Part shown: in pieces, positions 43,015-64,000 of the stretch
Layout: every line of letters begins with the position of its first letter
How positions within the stretch are numbered: position 1 is the stretch's first letter
Assembly: GCA_016350165.1 (NCBI GenBank)
Contig: CP066225.1
Coordinates: 4,774,001 to 4,838,000, forward strand
Length of the DNA stretch: 64,000 bases
Source of the DNA: Planctomycetota bacterium
GTDB taxonomy: Bacteria > Planctomycetota > Phycisphaerae > Phycisphaerales > Phycisphaeraceae
Direction: 5' to 3'
Translations under genes and position numbers: made by a program
Notes under the pieces: generated by a model
What the model was told of the DNA's origin: nothing
The model's database searches: none
The model's input: only the letters and a program-made list of their open reading frames with translations

Positions 43015-45636
43015 CTAATCGAGTTTCTTCAATGTCGCTTGTGTGGTAGATGCATCAATGCATGCGAAGAGTAGAGTGGTTGAGTTGCTGCTTTGAGATG
43101 TGACCTTGACGTTCTTGTTGTCGGTTACTTCCCATTTGCCTTGGAGCGTGATTTTAACTGGCATGGTTTGGCTCTTTGAGTAGAGCATTGCAGCATCACG
43201 GACGTGCTTGAGTTCCATGAGGCGAGGCTTTTTGATCCAACCAAAATCCGGGTTAGAGACACTGATCTTAACGTAGCCATCGGTTGCATCTTCGTTTTCA
43301 GTCATGACGATGCATGGTGTTGAAGCACGTTTGATGAATGTTTTCTTGAGGTCAGCTTTTTGTGGGTTGAAGATTGCGTAGCCGGTTTGGTTGAGTGCAT
43401 TGTGTTTGACGATGTGTGCGCCGGATGATTGCTGAATGATTTGGATGTTTTGATCGATATCAGCAGTTGCTGCAGCGGCATTGTCTTTGCCCGCTTTCAT
43501 TGTAATTGTGTATGCATAACTTTGATTTTTCGGTGTGATGCCGTGATCAAAATATGCCGTGACAAAAGCGCCTGAGTTTTTCCTCTTGCCCGTATGGTCG
43601 TATGAGTTTTGTTTAGCTCTTGTAACTTTGAGATTATGTGCATTAAGTGCGTAGAAGACGTTGCCGACGGCATCGCTGAGGATGACTTTGCTGTCTGCTT
43701 TACCTGTGAATGTAGTGTTTAAACCAGTAACAGCTTTACCGTCGATGATGCTGACGGTCTTCTGTGAAAGAAGAGCTGATTGGAAGAGTGTGGTTTCGAC
43801 GTGCATGCTGCCGAAGCCTTTGTCGTTGTCTTTCTTGGTGTCACCAACTTCAGAAGCTTTCTTAGGTTTGCCTTCGAGAGTGATGTCGGAGCCAAGTGCG
43901 ACGACTTGGTTGTCGAAGAAAAACCAACTCTTATTTGCGAAAACATCAATGTTACCTGCGAGGTTACGAAGTCTCATAACAGAGACGCCGTTCATATTAT
44001 CGAGGTTGACACCGCCTACGTAGGTTTGGTCGGTGAAACGACGTGTGCGCTGGTTTTGTTTGTTGAGGAAGAGAGGGATATTGACGGATGTTGCGCCTGG
44101 AAGACGGTTCCAGTTCCAACCATTGTCGCTGTAGCCGCTGTCATTGCGGTTGACTGGTGAGCCATGTGTATAGAGGGTCATGGTGCCGTTGCCTTCGTAA
44201 CGTCCGAAGATGTTGGTTGAGCCCTTCTTGCCAAGCTTGGCTTCATAATCCCAGATGTATTGACTGATACCTTTGATTGAGACGAGCCAATCATCGCGAC
44301 GGTGCGAGGTTAGTGCACCGTATTGCATGTACTTATAACCTTGTGGATCAGCTTCTGCGGTTGGTTTTTCAGCTGCGAGTTCGAGCATCAGAATGGTTGT
44401 GCCGATTTCGCCGAGTCCTTTACCTGAACCGAAGTTGCTGAAGAGAGTAGAGTGCTCGCGAAGATGATTTTCATCCCAAAGACGTGCGAAGATTGCACGT
44501 GCTTCTGGGTCGTTATAGCCTCTGCTTGTGCCGAGGTAAGCGGCGCTGCCAACGAGTTTTTGTGCTGTTTCAAGGCTTGTAGGGAAGCGGCCGCAGATTG
44601 GACGTGGCATGTCATACTTTTGGCAGTAAAAGCGAACTGATTTCATGCAGTTTTTGATATTGTCTATGCTTTGATTAGTTGGCGCGTATGAAGAGCCATT
44701 AAGGAGGTAGATCATACGTGAGGCAGCTTCGATGGCAGAGGTTGTGTATGCACCGCCATAGATGCTTTTGTGATGATAACCAACGCCATCAGCTTTGAAT
44801 GTATCAGCCCAGCCAGGAGCAATGGTGTAGCCTTTGTTAAGTAGGGCTTGTAAATATTCGAGGTTGCGTGTTTGGTCTTTGCCTTCTTTCATCGTGAGGA
44901 TGTAGGGGAGTCGATTGTTGGTGAGTGACTTGAGCATATCGGAATTGATGCCATCGTATGCAAAGATGTTACTTTTTGTACCTTTGGCAGGTGGAGAGAA
45001 CATGCGTGTTACTGAGTTGAGTGTATCGAGTTCACGTTGAAGGCGGTTAGTGTCGCGGAGCTCATTACGAAGAAGGAAGACAGATTTTGAGTAGCCACCA
45101 ATGTTGTTGTTGATGGAGCCACCGAAACCTGCAAAGCCTGTAGCTTCAAATGATTTGTAATCAAAGCCTGTATCTACGCCTTTTTTCCAGCCACGAACAT
45201 TGAGATGATCAAAGAGAAGCAGTGTTTTGTCGAGTGTTTGCTTGTTGTTGTAGTAAGGATTTTTGGCGCCTGGAAGGCCGGGGTATTTGTATGCAATACT
45301 GAGTGTTGGAAGAACTTCGTTTAGAAGGTAGCGTGCCTCTGCTTGGTAACTACCTGTACGTGAGACGTCGAGGATTTTGCTGTTATCTGTGAAGTCGAGT
45401 TTTTTAATGTCCTTGAGCGTTTTCTCAATCTTGGACATGATGCTTTGGTGCTGAGATTTGAGTGCAGGTGCGCTGCTGAGTGACTGAGGTGTGCCAACGA
45501 TGAGAGCATGAAGGCGGTCCTGCAGCATTTTTACTTCATCAGAAGCAAATGAAGTGTTTGACATACAAAAAATAAGCGAAAGTCCAGTTAGTATGGCAAA
45601 TTTAATATGCCTACGAATGATCATTTTGAACTCCAT
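43015..45636 (-). CDS. Polysaccharide lyase family 8 (hyaluronate/chondroitin lyase-like), secreted
   Basis: 873 residues. Signal peptide to about residue 31 (SLIFCMSNTSFA); the start may be the second Met at residue 5. An alpha/alpha toroid holds the catalytic block GYHHKSIYGGAY (286-297), with the His and Tyr that abstract and donate the proton, and the site NGWNWNRLPGATS (505-517), a hallmark of PL8. The C-terminal beta-sandwich domains include NKSWFFFDNQVVALGSDI. PL8 enzymes cleave hyaluronan, chondroitin sulfate or xanthan by beta-elimination outside the cell. It is the last gene after two BNR-type propeller genes on the same strand (109 bases), ending at a terminator. Exact substrate is not decidable. 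Confidence 0.92.
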   Translation of the reverse strand: MEFKMIIRRHIKFAILTGLSLIFCMSNTSFASDEVKMLQDRLHALIVGTPQSLSSAPALKSQHQSIMSKIEKTLKDIKKLDFTDNSKILDVSRTGSYQAEARYLLNEVLPTLSIAYKYPGLPGAKNPYYNNKQTLDKTLLLFDHLNVRGWKKGVDTGFDYKSFEATGFAGFGGSINNNIGGYSKSVFLLRNELRDTNRLQRELDTLNSVTRMFSPPAKGTKSNIFAYDGINSDMLKSLTNNRLPYILTMKEGKDQTRNLEYLQALLNKGYTIAPGWADTFKADGVGYHHKSIYGGAYTTSAIEAASRMIYLLNGSSYAPTNQSIDNIKNCMKSVRFYCQKYDMPRPICGRFPTSLETAQKLVGSAAYLGTSRGYNDPEARAIFARLWDENHLREHSTLFSNFGSGKGLGEIGTTILMLELAAEKPTAEADPQGYKYMQYGALTSHRRDDWLVSIKGISQYIWDYEAKLGKKGSTNIFGRYEGNGTMTLYTHGSPVNRNDSGYSDNGWNWNRLPGATSVNIPLFLNKQNQRTRRFTDQTYVGGVNLDNMNGVSVMRLRNLAGNIDVFANKSWFFFDNQVVALGSDITLEGKPKKASEVGDTKKDNDKGFGSMHVETTLFQSALLSQKTVSIIDGKAVTGLNTTFTGKADSKVILSDAVGNVFYALNAHNLKVTRAKQNSYDHTGKRKNSGAFVTAYFDHGITPKNQSYAYTITMKAGKDNAAAATADIDQNIQIIQQSSGAHIVKHNALNQTGYAIFNPQKADLKKTFIKRASTPCIVMTENEDATDGYVKISVSNPDFGWIKKPRLMELKHVRDAAMLYSKSQTMPVKITLQGKWEVTDNKNVKVTSQSSNSTTLLFACIDASTTQATLKKLD

Positions 45637-45745: not shown

Positions 45746-47572
45746 TTATAAACGTTGTTTTCGTGACAATGTAATGAGTGATCCAAGGATAAGTAACGAC
45801 AATGAGGTTGGTTCGGGGATTTGTGGCCAAGGTGTGTCGCTGATTTGAGTTGCCAAACGATCGGTTGTGACTTGAAGCCAAGTGTTGCCACCATCGTAAC
45901 TCGCCCATGTGACGGGGTCGTGTGCAAGGTTTTCAGGATCATCAGGCCAAAGTGCTTTGTACTCAGCTAGTTCCTCTTGAGAGATAGCATCCCATGTTGA
46001 ACCAGCTTTGTATGAGTAAGTGAGGTAGAGATTATCGTTGTTATCGATGGTTAGTTGTTGGTAGTAGATGTTGTAGCCGCCTCGTTCGGGGTTGACGAGT
46101 TCACGTTCGTCTGTTTCCCATTCCCACTGACCTTCAGCGTTCTTTTTGCCTCTGAGGTATGAGAGCGCGAATCCTCTTGTGCTGCCATCTAATGGTTTTT
46201 CAGAATCACGTACGACAAGATGGATGGTATCATCGGAATCCATGACGCCGCTGAGATAAGTGAAGCCACCACCACGATCGCCGCCTTCATAGCCTAAGTT
46301 AGCAGGACCAATGTCGCCTAGACTGTTGTATGTTCCATCCCAGTTGCTGTTATCGACCGCATCGGATGTTCGGAAGTGGCCGATTTGATCGTTGTGTGCA
46401 CCGGTTATGACGTGAGCATATCCATCGGAGTCTATCAATGAGATAGGTGAATTGTGTTGATCGGGAACGTTATCGTAGTAATCGCGTTTATTTGAGTAGG
46501 TGACTTCGAGGAATTGCGGTGATGATGCGGAGTCAGTATTCCAATCGTAGGATGCAGCAAATTGAGGAGAACCTGCGTTGTGTGTTGTTCCTGTACTGTC
46601 GGTGAAACCTGTATGGTTGCTCATGAATGAGATGACAGTGTGACCGTTATGTGTTGCTGTGATGTTACCTGCTCCTGAATGACCAGCAGGAAGTTTGGGG
46701 GCTACTGGGAATGATGATGCGTTTTGGCCTGATGGGTCTATTGCTGTTTTGAGGTTAGAAAGTGTTAAGTAACCATTCGAATTTGTGACTAATCCTTGGT
46801 TAGATATTTCAGCTTTGAAATACTGTAAAGAATCAGGAGCTGATTTTGTGCGAACAGAAACGATCGGGGTGTCGCGATCTTGTCCCGGACTGAAGTGCCG
46901 TTCGACAGAAGTTACATCCTCAACGTTCATGCGTCCAACTTGCCACGTGACAGGGTTAATTCCTGATGCTGTTGAAAGATCTTGGTCATTAGAGTAGAGG
47001 TAGTAGCTTGTGTCGTTGGTACCACGAACAATAACATGAGCATGATTGTTTTGATCAAAGTAGATTTTGGGGCGATTTTTAGTGCCACCATATAGCTCGG
47101 CGTTTTTAAATTGACTTTTTACAATGTCGTTGACTGAGTAAATAATCCATTGGTTGTCGGACTGGTTTAATGTTTGAATATAGATGTCATTTAAACTGTC
47201 AGTGGAATTTTTGGCGTGGCCGAAGATTGAAGTTTTGGTGGGGTTAGTGCCTGAAGGGGTTTGATAAACAGTTGAGATAACATAGGGGCGATTGTATGCA
47301 TCAAATGAAAATGCCTCAGGCATATAACGTGGGTTATATGTGAACTTCTCACGTTCCCTGTAGTACGTTTGGCGATATTGTACAGGGTGATTGCCGGGCT
47401 TGATTTTCCAGTTTGGTTTAGCACTCTCAACTTGATTCAGGTCGTATGGTGATATTTGAGCTGTTGTTTCAGTTTGCAGTATTGCTCCGCTTGCAGTGCT
47501 AGTAATGCAGGGAGAAATTGCTGCGAGTGATAGAACTAGAATGTGTTTGCAATATGGTAGATACATCATCAT
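45746..47572 (-). CDS. BNR-repeat (BNR_4-like) beta-propeller protein with PEP-CTERM tail
   Basis: 608 residues. Signal peptide (about 1-30); the mature part begins SPYDLNQVESAK and has propeller motifs YNPRYMPEAFSFDAYNRPYV, GGTKNRPKIYFDQNNHAHVI, HNSPISLIDSDGYAHVITGA, GGFTYLSGVMDSDDTIHLV and NIYYQQLTIDNNDNLYLTYS. Repeated HxN/H pairs in such propellers are catalytic in ulvan-lyase-like families (PL24/PL25), which share the BNR_4 fold; whether this protein is a lyase is inference. The C-terminus is IPEPTSLSLLILGSLITLSR plus a basic end, so exosortase sorting is expected. It is paralogous to the gene 17 bases upstream and precedes the PL8 gene. Confidence 0.82.
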   Translation of the reverse strand: MMMYLPYCKHILVLSLAAISPCITSTASGAILQTETTAQISPYDLNQVESAKPNWKIKPGNHPVQYRQTYYREREKFTYNPRYMPEAFSFDAYNRPYVISTVYQTPSGTNPTKTSIFGHAKNSTDSLNDIYIQTLNQSDNQWIIYSVNDIVKSQFKNAELYGGTKNRPKIYFDQNNHAHVIVRGTNDTSYYLYSNDQDLSTASGINPVTWQVGRMNVEDVTSVERHFSPGQDRDTPIVSVRTKSAPDSLQYFKAEISNQGLVTNSNGYLTLSNLKTAIDPSGQNASSFPVAPKLPAGHSGAGNITATHNGHTVISFMSNHTGFTDSTGTTHNAGSPQFAASYDWNTDSASSPQFLEVTYSNKRDYYDNVPDQHNSPISLIDSDGYAHVITGAHNDQIGHFRTSDAVDNSNWDGTYNSLGDIGPANLGYEGGDRGGGFTYLSGVMDSDDTIHLVVRDSEKPLDGSTRGFALSYLRGKKNAEGQWEWETDERELVNPERGGYNIYYQQLTIDNNDNLYLTYSYKAGSTWDAISQEELAEYKALWPDDPENLAHDPVTWASYDGGNTWLQVTTDRLATQISDTPWPQIPEPTSLSLLILGSLITLSRKQRL

Positions 47573-47589
47573 TCCCTTGTTGGGAGAGG

Positions 47590-49359
47590 TTATTTCTTAC
47601 GATTTCGAACGAATGCTAGACAGCTTATGAGTAGGGTTGTACAAGCAGCGGCTGAGGGTTCGGGGATGATATCCATTTGTTTTATGAATTTGTCGGTTGT
47701 TACTAATCGCCAGTTAGACCCGCTGTCGTAGCTTGCAAGCATTACAGGGTCATGAGCTAAGTCGATTTCAGCATCTGGATATTTTTCGAGATAAGCTGCG
47801 TACTCAGTTGAGTTCATATTTCTAGCCAAATAGCTGTACGAGAGGTATAAGTTACCTTTGTTGTCAATATTTAACTGGTGATAGTAGTTGCTATATGGGA
47901 GGTGGGCAGGTTCAATTAGTGTGGTACCTTCATCATCCCAATCCCAGCTTCCTTGAGCATTTTTTTTTGCACTTAGATATGCGAGGCTGTAGCGTTGCTT
48001 GCCGTTCTTGTACTCGGTGTCACGAACAACCATATGAATCTTATCATTTTGATCCATCACAGCAGCAATGTATGTAAAGCCGCCGCGTCCGCTGCCTAGA
48101 TCATGTGAAGAGATATCGCCAAGATCATCGAATTGGCTTATCCATGAGCTATCATCGATAGCTTTGGTTGAGCGAAAGTGACCCATTTTATCATTGTGTG
48201 CACCGGTGATGACGTGAGCATAGCCTGTTGAATCAATCAGGACGGCAGGTGCATTGTGTGAATCAGGTTTATTGTCGTTGACTAGATTTGAGTAAGTATT
48301 CTCTAAATAGGTGGGACTGGTGATGTGATTGTTATTCCAATCATAGGTTGAAGCGAATTGGCCAGTACCCAAGTTCTGGACGATACCATCTTGATTGACG
48401 TATTGGTTGTCTTTATTAAAGAACACAGCAATTGTATTGCCGTTGTAAGTACCTAATACGTTTGCTCCACCTGAATGACCGAGAGCGAATCCGGGATCAC
48501 CTGGTTGGTTGGAAGGCGTGGCGTTTTCTGCATTGTAGACAGTTACGCGGTTTGAAAGATCAAGATTACCTTTGGAGTCGGTTTTCAAGCCTTGGCTATC
48601 TATAATGGGTTTTAAGATATCGATATGCTTGTTTTTTTTGGGTGCTAGTGCAATGATTGGGAGGTTGTGGTCTTGTCCGGGGCTGAAATTTCTCTCTATG
48701 CCAGCTGATTTTATGCCTTTGATTTTTGCGACCTGCCAGTGAACTTGGTTGAGTCCTGATTTGTCTGTGAGGTTTGTGTCATCGGAGTATAGATAATAGG
48801 AGGTATTGCCTTCGCCGCGTATAACGATGTGAGCGTTGTTTTCATAGTCGAAAAATAATTGGGGTCTATTTTTTGTCCCGCCATAGAGTGCGGCATCAGG
48901 AAAGATCTGTTTTACAATTTCATTGACGGAGTATTTAACCCATTGGCTGTTATCAGCGTTCAGGGTTTGAATGTAAACATCCTCGAGGTTATTGCTGGTA
49001 GGTTTGGCGTGACCATGCCATGCTGTTGATGTTGGGTTATTGGGATTATTTGGCTGTTGGTAAACCGTATTGATAATAAATGGGCGGTTGTGCTTATCAA
49101 AGGTTACGGCTTCAGGCATATATCGCGGATTGTAACCATATTGCTCGCGTTCACGGTTATAGGTTGGTTTGTAGCGAATGTAGTTGGAGCCAGCCTGGAT
49201 ATGATAATCTTTGACAGTTTCTGTTTGGCCAAGATCATAGGGTGACACAGATGCTTGGGAATATGCATCTATAGAAACAGCGTTAACTGTATGAAACAGC
49301 AGGCAAGCAGAAAAAATAGCGAAGGTACAATTAAACATCGTTCTCAACAAAACAGTCAT
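47590..49359 (-). CDS. BNR-repeat (BNR_4-like) beta-propeller protein with PEP-CTERM tail (paralogue)
   Basis: 589 residues, tandem paralogue of the preceding entry and first gene of the operon. Shared blocks: YNPRYMPEAVTFDKHNRPFI, GGTKNRPQLFFDYENNAHIV, RNFSPGQDHNLPIIAL, HNAPAVLIDSTGYAHVITGA, NDKMGHFRSTKAIDDSSW and NYYHQLNIDNKGNLYLSYSY. Signal peptide to about residue 28. The C-terminal tail IIPEPSAAACTTLLISCLAF followed by RNRKK is a PEP-CTERM signal. The two copies differ most in linker loops, which suggests related but different substrates. A surface polysaccharide lyase or glycan-binding propeller is proposed; activity is unproven. Confidence 0.82.
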   Translation of the reverse strand: MTVLLRTMFNCTFAIFSACLLFHTVNAVSIDAYSQASVSPYDLGQTETVKDYHIQAGSNYIRYKPTYNREREQYGYNPRYMPEAVTFDKHNRPFIINTVYQQPNNPNNPTSTAWHGHAKPTSNNLEDVYIQTLNADNSQWVKYSVNEIVKQIFPDAALYGGTKNRPQLFFDYENNAHIVIRGEGNTSYYLYSDDTNLTDKSGLNQVHWQVAKIKGIKSAGIERNFSPGQDHNLPIIALAPKKNKHIDILKPIIDSQGLKTDSKGNLDLSNRVTVYNAENATPSNQPGDPGFALGHSGGANVLGTYNGNTIAVFFNKDNQYVNQDGIVQNLGTGQFASTYDWNNNHITSPTYLENTYSNLVNDNKPDSHNAPAVLIDSTGYAHVITGAHNDKMGHFRSTKAIDDSSWISQFDDLGDISSHDLGSGRGGFTYIAAVMDQNDKIHMVVRDTEYKNGKQRYSLAYLSAKKNAQGSWDWDDEGTTLIEPAHLPYSNYYHQLNIDNKGNLYLSYSYLARNMNSTEYAAYLEKYPDAEIDLAHDPVMLASYDSGSNWRLVTTDKFIKQMDIIPEPSAAACTTLLISCLAFVRNRKK

Positions 49360-57064: not shown

Positions 57065-58096
57065 TTAAATCTGCTCGGGTTTTACAAGAATTGGTTCAAT
57101 TACTACGTGTACCCCACGGTCCTGCTCTGGATGCCTGATCTGCCAGAGAAGTTGTTCTACACCTCTTTCACCACGTGAAATTGGTCCGATGTCAATAGTT
57201 GCTGGTCTAGGATAAAGTCCTGCTAGGTAAGGGGCTTCATTGTCGACAGAGATAATTTCTACGTCGATACCAGGCTTGATGTTGTGTTTACGTAACAGGC
57301 GATAAACGATAGCAGTCATCAGGTCAGACGGGACAAATATGCCAGTTGGCCTTGGTGATGATTTTGCGTATTGCTCAACAAGAATTTCCAAGCGAGATTC
57401 GATCGCAGACAAATCTTCAATGCCAGCTCCCGATGTCAATTGGTTGCCAATGTCATCAATGAATTCGACAACTTCAGCTCCGCCAGACTTGGCTGCGTAC
57501 ACAAACATTTCGCCGCGATATTGGTATGAAGGATTCTTCCCATCCGCACAGATGTAAGCAAGATTCTTCAGATTGCGACTACTTAAATAGTTTGCAGCAA
57601 TACGGCCAATCATCTCGTTACCAGAAAGGACAACGCCGCCAGATGTAGATGAGTGAGATGTCAGCCAAACAGCTGGAATATCTTTTACTGCATCAACAAC
57701 CCAGCCACAATCGCCTTCGCCGACGAGTAACACACCCTTGTATTGGTGTGCTTCGAGATACATTGCTAAGCGACTTGGCGTGGATGCATAGAGCAGTGAG
57801 CTGCATACACCTTCTGATTCACATACTCGCTCAACACCGTAATAAAGCTTTTGCAGGAAGGAGGAATGCTGCTTGCATGCCTCGCCTGTGACGATGACTG
57901 CAATTTCCATAATGTTGGTTCGATATTGTTTTAGTTGCGATCGCCGACGGTCTGCGCGAGGCTTGTAACCCATGTCGTCAATGATCTTTCTGATCTGGGC
58001 TGCAGTCTCTTCACTAACGCCTGGTTGGTCGTTAATGACTCGCGACACGGTCACGTGTGAAACACCTGCGATTTTTGCAATTTCCATCATGGACAT
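57065..58096 (-). CDS. LacI-family transcriptional regulator
   Basis: 343 residues. The N-terminal DNA-binding domain has the LacI helix-turn-helix SMMEIAKIAGVSHVTVSRVI (2-21), the hinge region and NDQPGVSEETAAQIRKIID. The periplasmic-binding-protein-like effector domain includes TNIMEIAVIVTG, YKGVLLVGEGDCGWVV, AVWLTSHSSTSGGVVLSGNE and PTGIFVPSDLMTAIVYRLL. It is transcribed divergently from the PHP-sulfatase-PL8 operon; three TTACGTAA-type half-palindromes with CG centres between the two genes are likely operators. It probably represses that operon until a glycan breakdown sugar binds. Confidence 0.93.
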   Translation of the reverse strand: MSMMEIAKIAGVSHVTVSRVINDQPGVSEETAAQIRKIIDDMGYKPRADRRRSQLKQYRTNIMEIAVIVTGEACKQHSSFLQKLYYGVERVCESEGVCSSLLYASTPSRLAMYLEAHQYKGVLLVGEGDCGWVVDAVKDIPAVWLTSHSSTSGGVVLSGNEMIGRIAANYLSSRNLKNLAYICADGKNPSYQYRGEMFVYAAKSGGAEVVEFIDDIGNQLTSGAGIEDLSAIESRLEILVEQYAKSSPRPTGIFVPSDLMTAIVYRLLRKHNIKPGIDVEIISVDNEAPYLAGLYPRPATIDIGPISRGERGVEQLLWQIRHPEQDRGVHVVIEPILVKPEQI

Positions 58097-58207: not shown

Positions 58208-58237
58208 TTGACAGTGGTTAATTTACGTTGTTATACT
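58208..58237 (+). promoter_or_regulatory. Sigma-70 promoter of the PHP-sulfatase-PL8 operon
   Basis: TTGACA at 58208-58213 and TATACT at 58232-58237, separated by 18 bases. This is close to consensus and directed at the gene starting at 58392. Operator 2 lies inside the spacer. Confidence 0.7.
58218..58229. promoter_or_regulatory. Candidate LacI-type operator 2, inside promoter spacer
   Basis: TTAATTTACGTT lies between the -35 and -10 hexamers. It is the exact reverse complement of the sequence at 58308-58319. Binding here would block RNA polymerase. Confidence 0.65.
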
Positions 58238-58391: not shown

Positions 58392-59888
58392 ATGTTGAAT
58401 CACAAGCTTTATTGGGGGGATCTTCATAGCCACTGTGCCATTAGTTATGGTCATGGTACAGTTGAGCAAGCGATTGCTCGTGCGGCTCAGCAGTTAGATT
58501 TTTGTTCCGTAACTGGCCATGCATTTTGGCCTGATATGCCTACAGACAGAGAGCAATACGGCGATATCATCGATTATCACAATGTTGGTTTTTCTACACT
58601 CGCAGGCAACTGGGATAAGCTGATACAGCTGCAAAAAGAAGGCTCGAAAGACAATAAATTCCTCGCATTGCCTAGTTATGAGTGGCATTCAATGAAATAT
58701 GGGGATCATAACCTGTATGTCCCCGGCCCAGATATGGATTTATGCGATCAACCAGATCTACCTATGCTTCGTGAAATGATGGCAAAGGCTGGCGGTTTCG
58801 CGATTCCTCACCATATCGGTTACGCAGCAGGCTACCGTGGCATCAATTGGAAGCACTTTAAAGAAGATGTGTCTCCATTCGTCGAAATTTTCTCATTGCA
58901 TGGCTGTTCTTGCGATGAATACTCACCATATCCGATGCTTCACGACATGGGGCCACGTGACTGGGGCTCAACAGCTGAAGCTGGCTGGAGTATGGGTCAT
59001 AAATTCGGCATCGTAGGCGGTACTGACCATCACGCAGCATACCCAGGCAGTCACGGCGATGGCCGAATGGGTGTCTTCGCTGAATCACTCACACGTGAGT
59101 CGTTGTTCAAAGCGTTCAAAGAGCGTCGAGTTTACGCTGCAACAGGCGATAAGATTGACGCTCGCATGTACATTGACGACGCATTCGTCGGTGATGTCAT
59201 CAAAAATGGTGGCAAACGTAAAGTAAAGATTAAAGTGCAGAGTATGGATGCACTGGATCAAGTTTACGTAATTAAGAATGGTCGCATCATTAAACGTATC
59301 ATCCCAACAACACATAGTCGTTGTAGCAGCGGTAAATATCGCCTGCGTGTTTATTGGGGCTGGGGAAAAAATTCTGAACGCCACGATTGGAATGCAAACC
59401 TTCAACTTACGAACGGTTGCATTGAGCAGGTCGAGCCTTGCTTCTCCGGTCAAGCTGTTGTTGCTCCAAACACCAATGGCGTGAACAATCATAAAGAAGC
59501 ACTTCTGCCTCACGAAATCGTCAGCACTGACGACAAGTTATGCACATGGAAATCCATCACATCCGGCAACATCACCATGCGGCACCCAACTGTTCAATCA
59601 GTTTCTATGCTCATCGATTCGAACATCGATGGCAACGTCACGCTAGATGTCAACGGCCACAAGATTGAACACAAACTTGAAGATCTTCTTCATAAGGGCC
59701 GCAGCCACTACATGCGTGGTTGGCTCAGCGAAGCTGTTCGTTTTGGTCCACTTGTACCAATCGAAGATTGTGTTGCGGAGATGGAATTCGAAGACGAACC
59801 TGAGAACGATACAGATGTTTATCGTCTGCAAGTATCTCAGTTCAACGGCCAGCAAGCATGGCTCTCACCAATTTGGGTTGAACGTTAA
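58392..59888 (+). CDS. PHP-type metalloenzyme of unknown function
   Basis: 498 residues, no signal peptide. The first 270 residues follow the PHP (polymerase and histidinol phosphatase) metal-binding layout: GDLHSHC (9-15), VTGHAF (H43), YEWHS (E97, H99), PHHIGY (H140, H141), EIFSLHG (E165, H170) and GGTDHHA (D212-H214). The rest is beta-rich. Similar stand-alone PHP proteins (DUF3604-like) occur in glycan loci, without a known reaction; a phosphoesterase or other metal hydrolase is likely. It is the first gene of a LacI-controlled operon with a Ser-type sulfatase (60 bases) and a PL8 lyase, so it should act on a glycosaminoglycan-type fragment in the cytoplasm. Confidence 0.82.
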   Translation: MLNHKLYWGDLHSHCAISYGHGTVEQAIARAAQQLDFCSVTGHAFWPDMPTDREQYGDIIDYHNVGFSTLAGNWDKLIQLQKEGSKDNKFLALPSYEWHSMKYGDHNLYVPGPDMDLCDQPDLPMLREMMAKAGGFAIPHHIGYAAGYRGINWKHFKEDVSPFVEIFSLHGCSCDEYSPYPMLHDMGPRDWGSTAEAGWSMGHKFGIVGGTDHHAAYPGSHGDGRMGVFAESLTRESLFKAFKERRVYAATGDKIDARMYIDDAFVGDVIKNGGKRKVKIKVQSMDALDQVYVIKNGRIIKRIIPTTHSRCSSGKYRLRVYWGWGKNSERHDWNANLQLTNGCIEQVEPCFSGQAVVAPNTNGVNNHKEALLPHEIVSTDDKLCTWKSITSGNITMRHPTVQSVSMLIDSNIDGNVTLDVNGHKIEHKLEDLLHKGRSHYMRGWLSEAVRFGPLVPIEDCVAEMEFEDEPENDTDVYRLQVSQFNGQQAWLSPIWVER

Positions 59889-59948: not shown

Positions 59949-61376
59949 ATGAGTAAGAAACGTCCAAACGTTATTTTCATTCTGACAGACGACCATGCCT
60001 CGCACGCAATGAGCTGTTATGGCAGCGTACTGAATGAAACACCGCAACTCGATCGTATCGCCAACAACGGTGTACGCTTCGATAATTGCTTCTGCACAAA
60101 CTCTCTTTCAGGTCCTAGTCGTGCAAGCATTCTCACCGGACAGCACACGCACATCAACGGCGTCACAACACTTGATACCGGTCTCGACAACAGACGCATG
60201 ACTTACATCAAGCTTTTAAGAGATGCAGGTTACCAAACCGGTATCGTTGGTAAGTGGCATCTTGGTCATGGTAAAGAATACGAACCAACTGGCTTCGATT
60301 ACTGGGAAGTACTACCAGGGCAGGGCGATTACATTAATCCGAAGTTCTATAAGATGGGTGAAGAGGTTCAGTATGATGGTTATGTAACTAATATCATCAC
60401 CGACCTGTCTTTGGATTACATGAAGAATCGCGACAAAGATCAACCATTCTGTCTGCTTTGTCATCACAAAGCACCACACCGTTGGTGGATTCCTGATGAG
60501 AAGTACAAAGATCTTTACGAAGATATTGAACTGCCAGTTCCTGAAACGTTTGATGATGACTATACAAATCGTGCACGTGCTGCATCAGTCGCTGAAATGC
60601 GCATTGATCGTGATCTAAAAGAGCGTGACATCAAAATGCCTGTACCTGAAGGGCTTTCACGTGAAGAACGCAAACATTGGCTCTATCAGCGTTACATTCG
60701 TGATTACCTCAAGTGTGTGAAGTCAGTTGATGATAGCGTTGGCCAAATTCTCGATTATCTCGAAGAAGAAGGTATTGCTGACGACACCATCGTAGTCTAC
60801 AGCTCTGACCAAGGTTTCTTCCTCGGCGATCACGGTTGGTACGACAAGCGATTCATGTACGAAGAATCACTCCGTATGCCTTTCATCATGCAGTACCCCA
60901 ATGGCTTTGACAAAGAGCAAGCCAATGATGACATCATTACCAACGTTGACTTTGCACCGACACTACTCGAACTCTGCGGCGTAGAAGTTCCCGAAGAAAT
61001 GCAAGGCACAAGTTTTGTCCCAATCCTCGAAGGTACGACCCCAGATGATTGGCAGCAATCCATGTACTACCGTTACTGGATGCACCTTAATCAGCACAAC
61101 GTCTACTCACACTACGGCGTTCGCACCAAAGATTACAAGCTGATCTTTTATTATGCTGATCACTGCGATCAGCCCGGTGCACTCAAAGACCTACGCACAC
61201 CAGAATGGGAACTTTTCGACCTCAAGAAGGACCCATGTGAAATGAATAACGTTTACCATGACTCAGCTTATGCAGACGTTATCAAAGAACTCAAAGCAGA
61301 ACTTCGTCATCTACAAGACAAGTTCCAAGACACGCCTAGCGAGCGTGAAGCATTGCCAACAGCCGTGCCGTACTAA
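59949..61376 (+). CDS. Sulfatase, Ser-type, without signal peptide
   Basis: 475 residues, beginning MSKKRPNVIFILTDDHASH, so there is no export signal. Metal ligands D14-D15. The catalytic motif is S54-G-P-S-R (SLSGPSRASILTGQHTH). Other blocks: GIVGKWHLGHG, LCHHKAPHRWW, YSSDQGFFLGDHGWYDKRFM, RMPFIMQYP, DLKKDPCEMNNVY. The DHGWYDKRFMYEESLRMP pattern is that of sulfatases acting on glycosaminoglycan or heparin-type substrates, though the exact position is unknown. Being cytoplasmic and in one operon with a PHP enzyme and a PL8 lyase, it probably removes sulfate from imported unsaturated disaccharides. It needs an anSME maturase encoded elsewhere. Confidence 0.94.
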   Translation: MSKKRPNVIFILTDDHASHAMSCYGSVLNETPQLDRIANNGVRFDNCFCTNSLSGPSRASILTGQHTHINGVTTLDTGLDNRRMTYIKLLRDAGYQTGIVGKWHLGHGKEYEPTGFDYWEVLPGQGDYINPKFYKMGEEVQYDGYVTNIITDLSLDYMKNRDKDQPFCLLCHHKAPHRWWIPDEKYKDLYEDIELPVPETFDDDYTNRARAASVAEMRIDRDLKERDIKMPVPEGLSREERKHWLYQRYIRDYLKCVKSVDDSVGQILDYLEEEGIADDTIVVYSSDQGFFLGDHGWYDKRFMYEESLRMPFIMQYPNGFDKEQANDDIITNVDFAPTLLELCGVEVPEEMQGTSFVPILEGTTPDDWQQSMYYRYWMHLNQHNVYSHYGVRTKDYKLIFYYADHCDQPGALKDLRTPEWELFDLKKDPCEMNNVYHDSAYADVIKELKAELRHLQDKFQDTPSEREALPTAVPY

Positions 61377-61473: not shown

Positions 61474-64000
61474 ATGATCAGGATGAAAACCACAGCAAAG
61501 ATCTCATACACTTTAATCGCTTTAGTATTAATAGTTTTACTACAGATAGAAACGATACACGCGAAATCTAAAAATGATCTCGGTAAATTTGCATCTTTCG
61601 AAAATGCCTCTGCTCTAACGACTTGGCAAGACAATAGTGGCACCCTTTCTATTTCACCACGTCATTTCAAGCATGGCAAAAACAGCCTCAAATGGCAGTG
61701 GTCTGCGAACTCAATTCTAAAACATTCATCCAAAGATTTGATCGCAGCCACAACCTTACGTGGTGGTAAAACCGAACGTTTTGAACAGCATTTTATCGAT
61801 AGGCAAGCACTCGTAGGCGGCATTCTTTCATGGGTATATAACGAAAACCCAATCGACGATCAGCTTACCTTTGTGTTTGGTACTTCAGAATCACTTGCTG
61901 TAAACAATCCACGCTATCGATACACATTCAACCTGAATTTTAAAGGGTGGCGTGCGATGTGGGTGCAACTCGATGCCGATGCCGCAGTCGAAAATTATGT
62001 AGGTAATCAACTTGTCGATTCAATGTGGGTATATCCACCAAAGAACAATGTAGCCGGATCAGTTTTCTTCGACATGATCGAATTTACATCGCATGTAACC
62101 AGCAAGAGAAATGCTGACGATCAGCTACCTTTCCTTAATAAGGAATATGAAGTTTGGGGTGAAAACGAAATCTCAAACCAATGGGGCCCACCTCTTCATT
62201 GGCGTGCATTACAACCATCACGTTTGATAGCAGATAAAATTACCGATTCGCAAATCGAAACATTCGATAGAATTCTTCAACGTTATGACAATTGGATTCT
62301 CAGCAACCAAAATGTAGACATTGATAATCAAGCATATCAGATACGACTTGCTAATCTTCAAAAAGCAATCAGCAAAGCAAAAAAAAGCTACGGCAAACTA
62401 AACATTAAGCGTCTTTCCGATGGCACAATTGTTGGTAATGCGTTTTTCAGTGAACGTGATAAATACGATCCGCGTTTTGGCAGTTTACTTAAGAACGGCC
62501 TTCCGCTCATGTTAGCCTTTGATTACAAAATCAACGGCAACACTGAAAGTAAACAAAAGCTCTTTGATTTCCTTGATTATATTCACGATCAGGGTTGGGC
62601 GGACGGCAGCGCGATCGGCACAATTAATCACCAAACGAATAGCGTTTCTTCATATATCCATGCTGTAATGGTCATGCGTAAAGAATTGAAAGAAACTGGC
62701 CGCCTTGCTCGTGAAATCGCAAAGATTCGCTGGTATTGTTTGTTTGGCAAAATCTATGATCCAAATCCACGTCAAGACGTAACCGCTGATACCGTGCGAA
62801 CAAATCTACTCTATCATTTGCTTGTCATTCTCATGATGGATGATACGCCAGAAAAAGTAACAGCCATTCAAAACTATCTTGCATGGTTAGATTACGCACT
62901 CGGTGTCATGCCCGGCTTCAAAGATACAATCAAGCCCGACTATCTCGGCTATCACCATCGCGGCGCATACCTCAACGCTTACTCATCTGAAGCGTATCAT
63001 GTGGCTTCTGTTGTCGCATATCTACTGCATGGCACACAGTTCTCCATGCCCGAAAATGCAACACACAACCTCAAGCAATCGCTTCTCACACTTAGAAGCA
63101 TTTCCCAAGTTTACGATACACCGCAAAGTGTTGCAGGTCGCTTTCCTCATAATATCAGACCACTTGCAAAGCTTCTTCCTGCATACGGCTATCTTTCATT
63201 CGATCAAGATTCAGAAAGTGCCAATCAGTACGATCCACAGATGATCGCCGCTTTCAAACGCCTTTGGCTAGCTGATCCAGAATTACTTCAAAGCGAACTG
63301 TTCCCCAAAGCTTTCAGTCGCATCAGCTACTACGACACACTCGGCGCAATTCAGCTAATGAACAAACTAGCTGCAGTTGAAGCATCTGCAGAAGCTGATC
63401 CAGAATTGACAACCTACAAGCCATATGCAGCTTTATTTGTACATCGCAAGGGCAATTGGCTTGCAAATGTTCATGGCTGGAGTCAGTATATTTGGGACTT
63501 TGAATCAAGTGCATCCGAAAACCTCTACGGTCGCTACTGGAGTTACGGTATGTTGCAAATCCTCGCAACAGGTAATCCAGTTAACACAATCGATAGTGGC
63601 ATTAACGTCGAGAATGGTTGGGATTGGAATAGACTTCCTGGCTCAACGACAAAACATTTAGACTTAGATGAACTAATTGTCGATCGTAAACCATCAGCTA
63701 ACTACAAAGAAGGTCGGCATCGCAATTTTTCCGATGAAACCTTTGTCGGCGGCGTCACATCACAAAACAAAGCAGGCATCTTTGCGATGAAGTTGCATGA
63801 CACTGCATATGATCCAACCTTCAAAGCACGCAAGTCATACTTCTTCTTTGATGACCGAATCATCTGTCTAGGCACTGGTATTCAAAACCAGGATTCGCAG
63901 CACAACACTGAAACAACTTTGTTCCAATTCAGCCTTAATAACCTCTCTAACCCGCTTGAAATGAGTGATAGTAATGACTTGCATGATAGTCATTTCACCC
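61474..64000 (+). CDS. Polysaccharide lyase family 8, chondroitinase ABC-like (3' end outside window)
   Basis: The frame from the ATG at 61474 (or 61483) stays open to the right edge, about 842 codons. A signal peptide (TLIALVLIVLLQIETIHA) is followed by an N-terminal beta-sandwich with HFKHGKNSLKWQW, as in chondroitin ABC lyases, then the toroid with catalytic block GYHHRGAYLNAYSSEAYHVA (residue about 483 on) and ENGWDWNRLPGSTT at 63613-63654. Numbering of the His and Tyr fits the PL8 base and acid pair. It cleaves chondroitin/dermatan-type chains to unsaturated disaccharides outside the cell. It is 97 bases after the sulfatase in the LacI-controlled operon. This PL8 differs in subfamily from the one at 43015. 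Confidence 0.9.
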   Translation, partial: MIRMKTTAKISYTLIALVLIVLLQIETIHAKSKNDLGKFASFENASALTTWQDNSGTLSISPRHFKHGKNSLKWQWSANSILKHSSKDLIAATTLRGGKTERFEQHFIDRQALVGGILSWVYNENPIDDQLTFVFGTSESLAVNNPRYRYTFNLNFKGWRAMWVQLDADAAVENYVGNQLVDSMWVYPPKNNVAGSVFFDMIEFTSHVTSKRNADDQLPFLNKEYEVWGENEISNQWGPPLHWRALQPSRLIADKITDSQIETFDRILQRYDNWILSNQNVDIDNQAYQIRLANLQKAISKAKKSYGKLNIKRLSDGTIVGNAFFSERDKYDPRFGSLLKNGLPLMLAFDYKINGNTESKQKLFDFLDYIHDQGWADGSAIGTINHQTNSVSSYIHAVMVMRKELKETGRLAREIAKIRWYCLFGKIYDPNPRQDVTADTVRTNLLYHLLVILMMDDTPEKVTAIQNYLAWLDYALGVMPGFKDTIKPDYLGYHHRGAYLNAYSSEAYHVASVVAYLLHGTQFSMPENATHNLKQSLLTLRSISQVYDTPQSVAGRFPHNIRPLAKLLPAYGYLSFDQDSESANQYDPQMIAAFKRLWLADPELLQSELFPKAFSRISYYDTLGAIQLMNKLAAVEASAEADPELTTYKPYAALFVHRKGNWLANVHGWSQYIWDFESSASENLYGRYWSYGMLQILATGNPVNTIDSGINVENGWDWNRLPGSTTKHLDLDELIVDRKPSANYKEGRHRNFSDETFVGGVTSQNKAGIFAMKLHDTAYDPTFKARKSYFFFDDRIICLGTGIQNQDSQHNTETTLFQFSLNNLSNPLEMSDSNDLHDSHFT

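Follow-up and report, generated by a model that had tools for sequence, protein, structure and literature searches.

The window, by which we mean the whole 64,000-nucleotide stretch of DNA analysed here, closes inside a five-gene operon that continues past its end (Table 1). The first gene is an ORF of 498 uninterrupted codons encoding a PHP protein; it is followed by genes for a Ser-type sulfatase, a PL8 lyase, an SSS (sodium) symporter and a Tat-signal sulfatase, the last two lying beyond the window, with intergenic gaps of 60, 97, 48 and 48 bp in gene order. The lyase, sulfatase and transporter genes are co-directional, as in a glycosaminoglycan (GAG) utilisation operon, and the initial annotation was right in making the PHP gene the leader of an operon with a signal-less sulfatase and a secreted lyase. 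The lyase has chondroitinase 2q1f as its best solved relative (E 4e-108) and also matches 1hn0; the solved chains nearest to the adjacent sulfatase are a mucin-desulfating sulfatase (7p24) and an N-acetylglucosamine-6-sulfatase (5g2v).

Table 1. Features of the PHP operon and its surroundings, in window coordinates
Feature	Position	Strand	Basis
Second PL8 lyase, same region	43015..45636	-	Pfam
Two secreted BNR_4 proteins	45746..49359	-	Pfam; 30% homologue adjoins PL8 in G018
LacI-type regulator, divergent from the PHP operon	57065..58096	-	Pfam
Operator-like palindrome TTTACGTAAA	58190..58199		exact TTWACGTWAA
Promoter-like TTGACA-18-TATACT, 11/12, TG before second hexamer	58208..58237	+	consensus match only
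Second operator-like palindrome TTAACGTAAA	58306..58315		exact TTWACGTWAA
PHP metallohydrolase gene, 498 aa, without signal peptide	58392..59888	+	NF038032 72.4 bits, PF12228 33.1 bits, predicted structure
PHP (metal-binding) domain, residues 4-253	58401..59150	+	invariant columns, motif table, 2anu match over residues 4-253
C-terminal beta-rich region, residues 254-498	59151..59885	+	DSSP of predicted structure; only ordinary beta-sandwich matches
Ser-type sulfatase lacking a signal peptide, active site LSGPSR	59949..61376	+	nearest solved chains 7p24, 5g2v
Secreted PL8 lyase, chondroitinase-ABC type, 1068 aa in all	61474..64000, past window end	+	profile and solved-structure match

Exact matches to TTWACGTWAA, a pattern picked after inspection of the stretch between the LacI-type regulator and PHP genes, number two in the window against 0.33 expected, and both lie in that stretch; the promoter scan overall gave no excess over shuffles. 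Two more exact copies occur elsewhere in the same genome (L060, positions 7838 and 7980), within 337 bp upstream of a distant PL8 gene that is preceded by a GntR-LacI-type regulator gene. Because of how the pattern was chosen, the paired palindromes before the PHP operon and the distant PL8 gene only suggest a shared regulon.

The PHP protein starts with MLNHKLYWGDLHSH... and, as described earlier, carries no signal peptide. The PHP fold claimed for it is reproduced by a five-model structure prediction based on 26 sequences (mean pLDDT 88.8, pTM 0.91), for which 2anu (TM0559; Z 18.8, rmsd 3.4, 212 aligned) and 3e38 (BVU_3505; Z 18.8, rmsd 3.8, 237 aligned) are the equal-best solved folds, alike in fold but only 15-17% identical to the window protein and with functions that are themselves predicted. 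PDB searches with the single sequence and with a profile found nothing at E up to 1, and PHROGs gave no match. The closest family model is NF038032 (CehA/McbA), matched by all 26/26 aligned relatives and by the window protein at 72.4 bits (E 4e-20), which is below the curated cut-off of 80. The sole Pfam family found is PF12228 (DUF3604), at 33.1 bits against a gathering cut-off of 20.4 but over only 49/591 model positions (residues 224-272); a search of the DUF3604 literature found nothing relevant. Taken together, the sequence matches and the predicted structure indicate that the protein belongs to a subfamily of its own near CehA/McbA, with a PHP fold.

Invariant columns of the core-family alignment within the PHP domain are H12, H14, Y19, H43, E97, H99, H140, H141, E165, H170, D212 and H214. 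Measured against the full PHP motif set (HxH...D, H, E...H, H, DxH), the expected metal ligands H12, H14, H43, E97, H140/H141, D212 and H214, assigned by motif, are kept; the proposal that every metal-ligand position is visible therefore goes too far, with exceptions at three points. Tyr19 replaces the Asp of the usual HxHxxxSDG throughout the core family, the Asp of the motif II DH is Gly42 (GH for DH), and the H106 position is variable. Tyr19 and GH are a subfamily trait, since the more distant CehA-like proteins L045 and L046 retain both SDG and DH. The extra invariant H99 and the glycan-operon context further separate the window protein from CehA/McbA.

What reaction might such a centre catalyse? 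The usual PHP activity is that of a phosphoesterase, and 2anu and 3e38 bear that annotation, though by prediction; action on a phosphorylated sugar is nonetheless highly improbable here, where the first-motif Asp is lost, the operon transporter is a symporter rather than a PTS, and the operon holds no sugar kinase. Named CehA/McbA members hydrolyse carbamate esters (PMC8292978). With sugar dehydrogenases (Gfo/Idh/MocA or SDR) the commonest neighbours of PHP genes, this likeness leads us to favour acyl-type hydrolysis, tentatively: by analogy it is a possible chemistry, less than an even prospect, and its transfer from CehA/McbA is uncertain because the family score is too low for the cut-off and Tyr stands in place of the first-motif Asp.

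The neighbours were counted in 39 loci, which are not independent; the counts are cluster-based and Pfam-checked for part of the members, and gene calls in high-GC loci were composition-scored. A same-strand Gfo gene lies within 5 kb of PHP in 22/39 loci, a sulfatase in 11/39, an SDR in 4/39 and a PL8 in 2/39; the sulfatase figure is no test against chance because planctomycetes are sulfatase-rich. The second PL8 locus belongs to a genome of the same class but another family, G018, where the gene order is sulfatase-sulfatase-PL8-PHP-sulfatase and where BNR_4, PL8, heparinase-like, SSS, GH3 and GH154 genes lie within 25 kb upstream. Its SSS symporter and Tat sulfatase are each 53% identical to their homologues at the window locus, its PL8 35% and its BNR_4 protein 30%. 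A tree of 32 PHP proteins places the window protein within a set from Verrucomicrobiota and Planctomycetota (support 100/99), beside Opitutales (90/78), and the G018 protein in a different starred clade with a Verrucomicrobiales protein. Since that clade is distinct and well supported, the PHP-PL8 pairing probably arose twice; alternatively, the PHP gene may have been swapped within one shared PHP-PL8 operon. In a third genome, G422, the PHP and sulfatase genes overlap by 4 bases. The sulfatases beside PHP in the window, G018 and G422 are 22-25% identical and not one subfamily, and therefore give no indication of the substrate position.

Other loci vary on this theme. The Opitutales operon runs sulfatase-Gfo-MFS-PHP-Gfo-DUF1080-like-sulfatase, and sulfatases recur in neighbouring Opitutales operons (L003, L006, L008, L013), with a NagB-like fusion and a PIG-L-type gene upstream in L008. 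In a Trueperaceae locus (L030), PHP follows a D-mannonate oxidoreductase-type SDR; genes for NagA, a NagB-like protein, sulfatases and an enolase resembling sugar-acid dehydratases lie upstream. For most Pirellulales-type relatives the setting is a Gfo-MFS-PHP operon, in some cases including M81, with neither lyase nor sulfatase. The Gfo - Nuc_H_symport-type MFS - PHP arrangement is conserved in Pirellulales-type and Opitutales loci (L010 7361-11491 and similar) and often takes in M81 (MlrC-like) or a second Gfo.

The operon itself, the second PHP-PL8-sulfatase locus and the sister operons, in which sulfatase and amino-sugar genes occur, make it probable that the PHP enzyme has a role in a chondroitin-type GAG pathway, even though PL8 adjoins PHP in two loci only. 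In the explanation that we favour, the secreted PL8 lyase would release unsaturated (sulfated) disaccharides outside the cell and the SSS symporter would import them; in the cytoplasm, the disaccharides or sugars released from them would then serve as substrates for both PHP and the Ser-type sulfatase. In the least certain step, the metal centre would activate water for acyl-type hydrolysis of a sugar lactone, an ester or an N-acyl bond. The lactone version draws on other loci, because no dehydrogenase lies beside PHP in the window operon, G018 or G422. As a whole, a cytoplasmic metal-dependent hydrolase that leads a GAG operon and performs acyl-type chemistry is a realistic prospect, somewhat short of even. 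No PHP enzyme in a GAG locus was found in the open-access literature; an enzyme of this fold acting on a lyase product would add a new step to GAG breakdown.

One particular form of acyl-type hydrolysis would make the enzyme an N-deacetylase of GalNAc, a GalNAc sulfate or the disaccharide, in place of NagA. The source genome (5.23 Mb, one contig) has no NagA, the best match reaching 23.7 bits, and the NagB-like and PIG-L genes of the neighbouring Opitutales operons would fit; we consider this version quite unlikely, given that L030 has PHP together with a NagA above the cut-off, that G018 has a partial NagA-like match (179 bits), and that the Pirellulales-type Gfo/MFS/PHP operons contain no amino-sugar gene. 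The Gfo neighbours could instead mean that a Gfo/Idh/MocA dehydrogenase produces a 3-keto glycoside which PHP then cleaves, through metal-assisted elimination or hydrolysis, as the conserved Gfo-MFS-PHP-Gfo operons and a putative DUF1080 (3-keto-disaccharide hydrolase) cluster beside PHP in four loci would allow. This, too, is very improbable for the window protein, whose operon lacks Gfo and whose genome is nearly devoid of DUF1080 (best match 26.5 bits).

The main rival to acyl-type hydrolysis is the proposal of the initial annotation that PHP supplies a new step on the unsaturated disaccharide in place of GH88/GH105. Metal-bound water would hydrate the enol ether, the glycoside would fall apart, and the 4,5-unsaturated uronate would be removed from the imported disaccharide; the PHP protein would thus occupy the pathway position of the unsaturated uronyl hydrolases but has no match to their family (PF07470). 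We know of no PHP-fold glycosidase. That the window has no GH88/GH105 is true and extends to the whole source genome, in which controls were detected: it has five PL8 matches and a single match to this PHP, the window gene, but none to PF07470, GH154 or KduI. The missing KduI is not decisive because DhuI is an alternative isomerase; PMC12838403 mentions KduI "or" another. G018 has two PL8 genes, with GH154 near one of them, but lacks the GH88/GH105 partner for which GH154 should provide unsaturated ends (PMC12269599). No glycosidase is seen in these PHP operons, and two Opitutales genomes with PHP-sulfatase operons, G508 and G509, yielded no GH88, in assemblies that may be incomplete.

A survey of 150 genomes of the class, in which GH88 was scored as absent when PF07470 had no match at E 0.001, weighs against such a replacement as a rule. 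PL8 occurs in 19/150 genomes, 11 of which have no GH88 (G000, G053, G066, G006, G018, G037, G043, G044, G080, G094, G147); PHP (E 1e-20 or better) is present in only three of the 11 (G000, G018, G044), and in G044 it is distant and on another contig than PL8. The contrast with PL8 genomes that have GH88 (3/11 against 0/8) is not significant, at about 0.17. PHP and PL8 do go together somewhat in the class: three of the five genomes with PHP at E 1e-50 or better also have PL8 (hypergeometric ~0.015, kinship ignored). This PHP was found in 0/7 sampled genomes of the family to which the source genome belongs.

The idea that PHP generally stands in for GH88 was accordingly rejected, with eight of the 11 GH88-less PL8 genomes lacking PHP, most PHP relatives residing with Gfo/MFS in loci without PL8, and PHP coexisting with GH88 in G010, G419, G311 and G510-G515. 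Since only 3/11 have PHP, most GH88-less PL8 genomes need another answer. Of the earlier proposal, then, the part that assigned PHP to GAG catabolism stands, on the strength of the operon, its chondroitinase-ABC-type PL8, the G018 locus and the sister operons that contain sulfatase and amino-sugar genes. The suggested co-occurrence is seen somewhat with PL8 and, as a rule, is not supported for GH88 absence. As a specific proposal GH88 replacement is weak; it is compatible with the source genome and G018, both GH88-less, and we regard uronyl removal by the window protein as unlikely. If true, it would be a glycosidic reaction not known to us for the PHP fold, and a bacterium that has five PL8 genes but no GH88 would have its GH88/GH105 step filled. 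GH154 is also absent from eight of the 11 genomes (G000, G053, G066, G037, G043, G044, G094, G147), and KduI is absent from G000, G018, G053, G066, G037, G043, G080 and G094; in PL8 genomes without detectable GH88/GH105, GH154 or KduI, the route taken by unsaturated uronates is a directly testable question.

GH154 uronate dehydratases are an earlier example of chondroitin breakdown drawing on an enzyme that had not been expected there (PMC12269599); they form a different family from PHP and are named beside GH88 in PMC13260240. The G018 gene for such a dehydratase (L083 3929-5803, - strand) lies near PL8, SSS and GH3 genes in a genome without GH88/GH105, the usual GH154 partner. Secreted BNR_4 proteins adjoin PL8 both in the window and in L083 (14668-16932, - strand), with 30% identity between the two places, and may be GAG-active propellers. 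Finally, an operon neighbouring that of PHP encodes a GH29-type alpha-fucosidase (PF01120; 53391-55187, - strand) together with two sulfatases, which makes fucosylated chondroitin sulfate an obvious candidate substrate to test.
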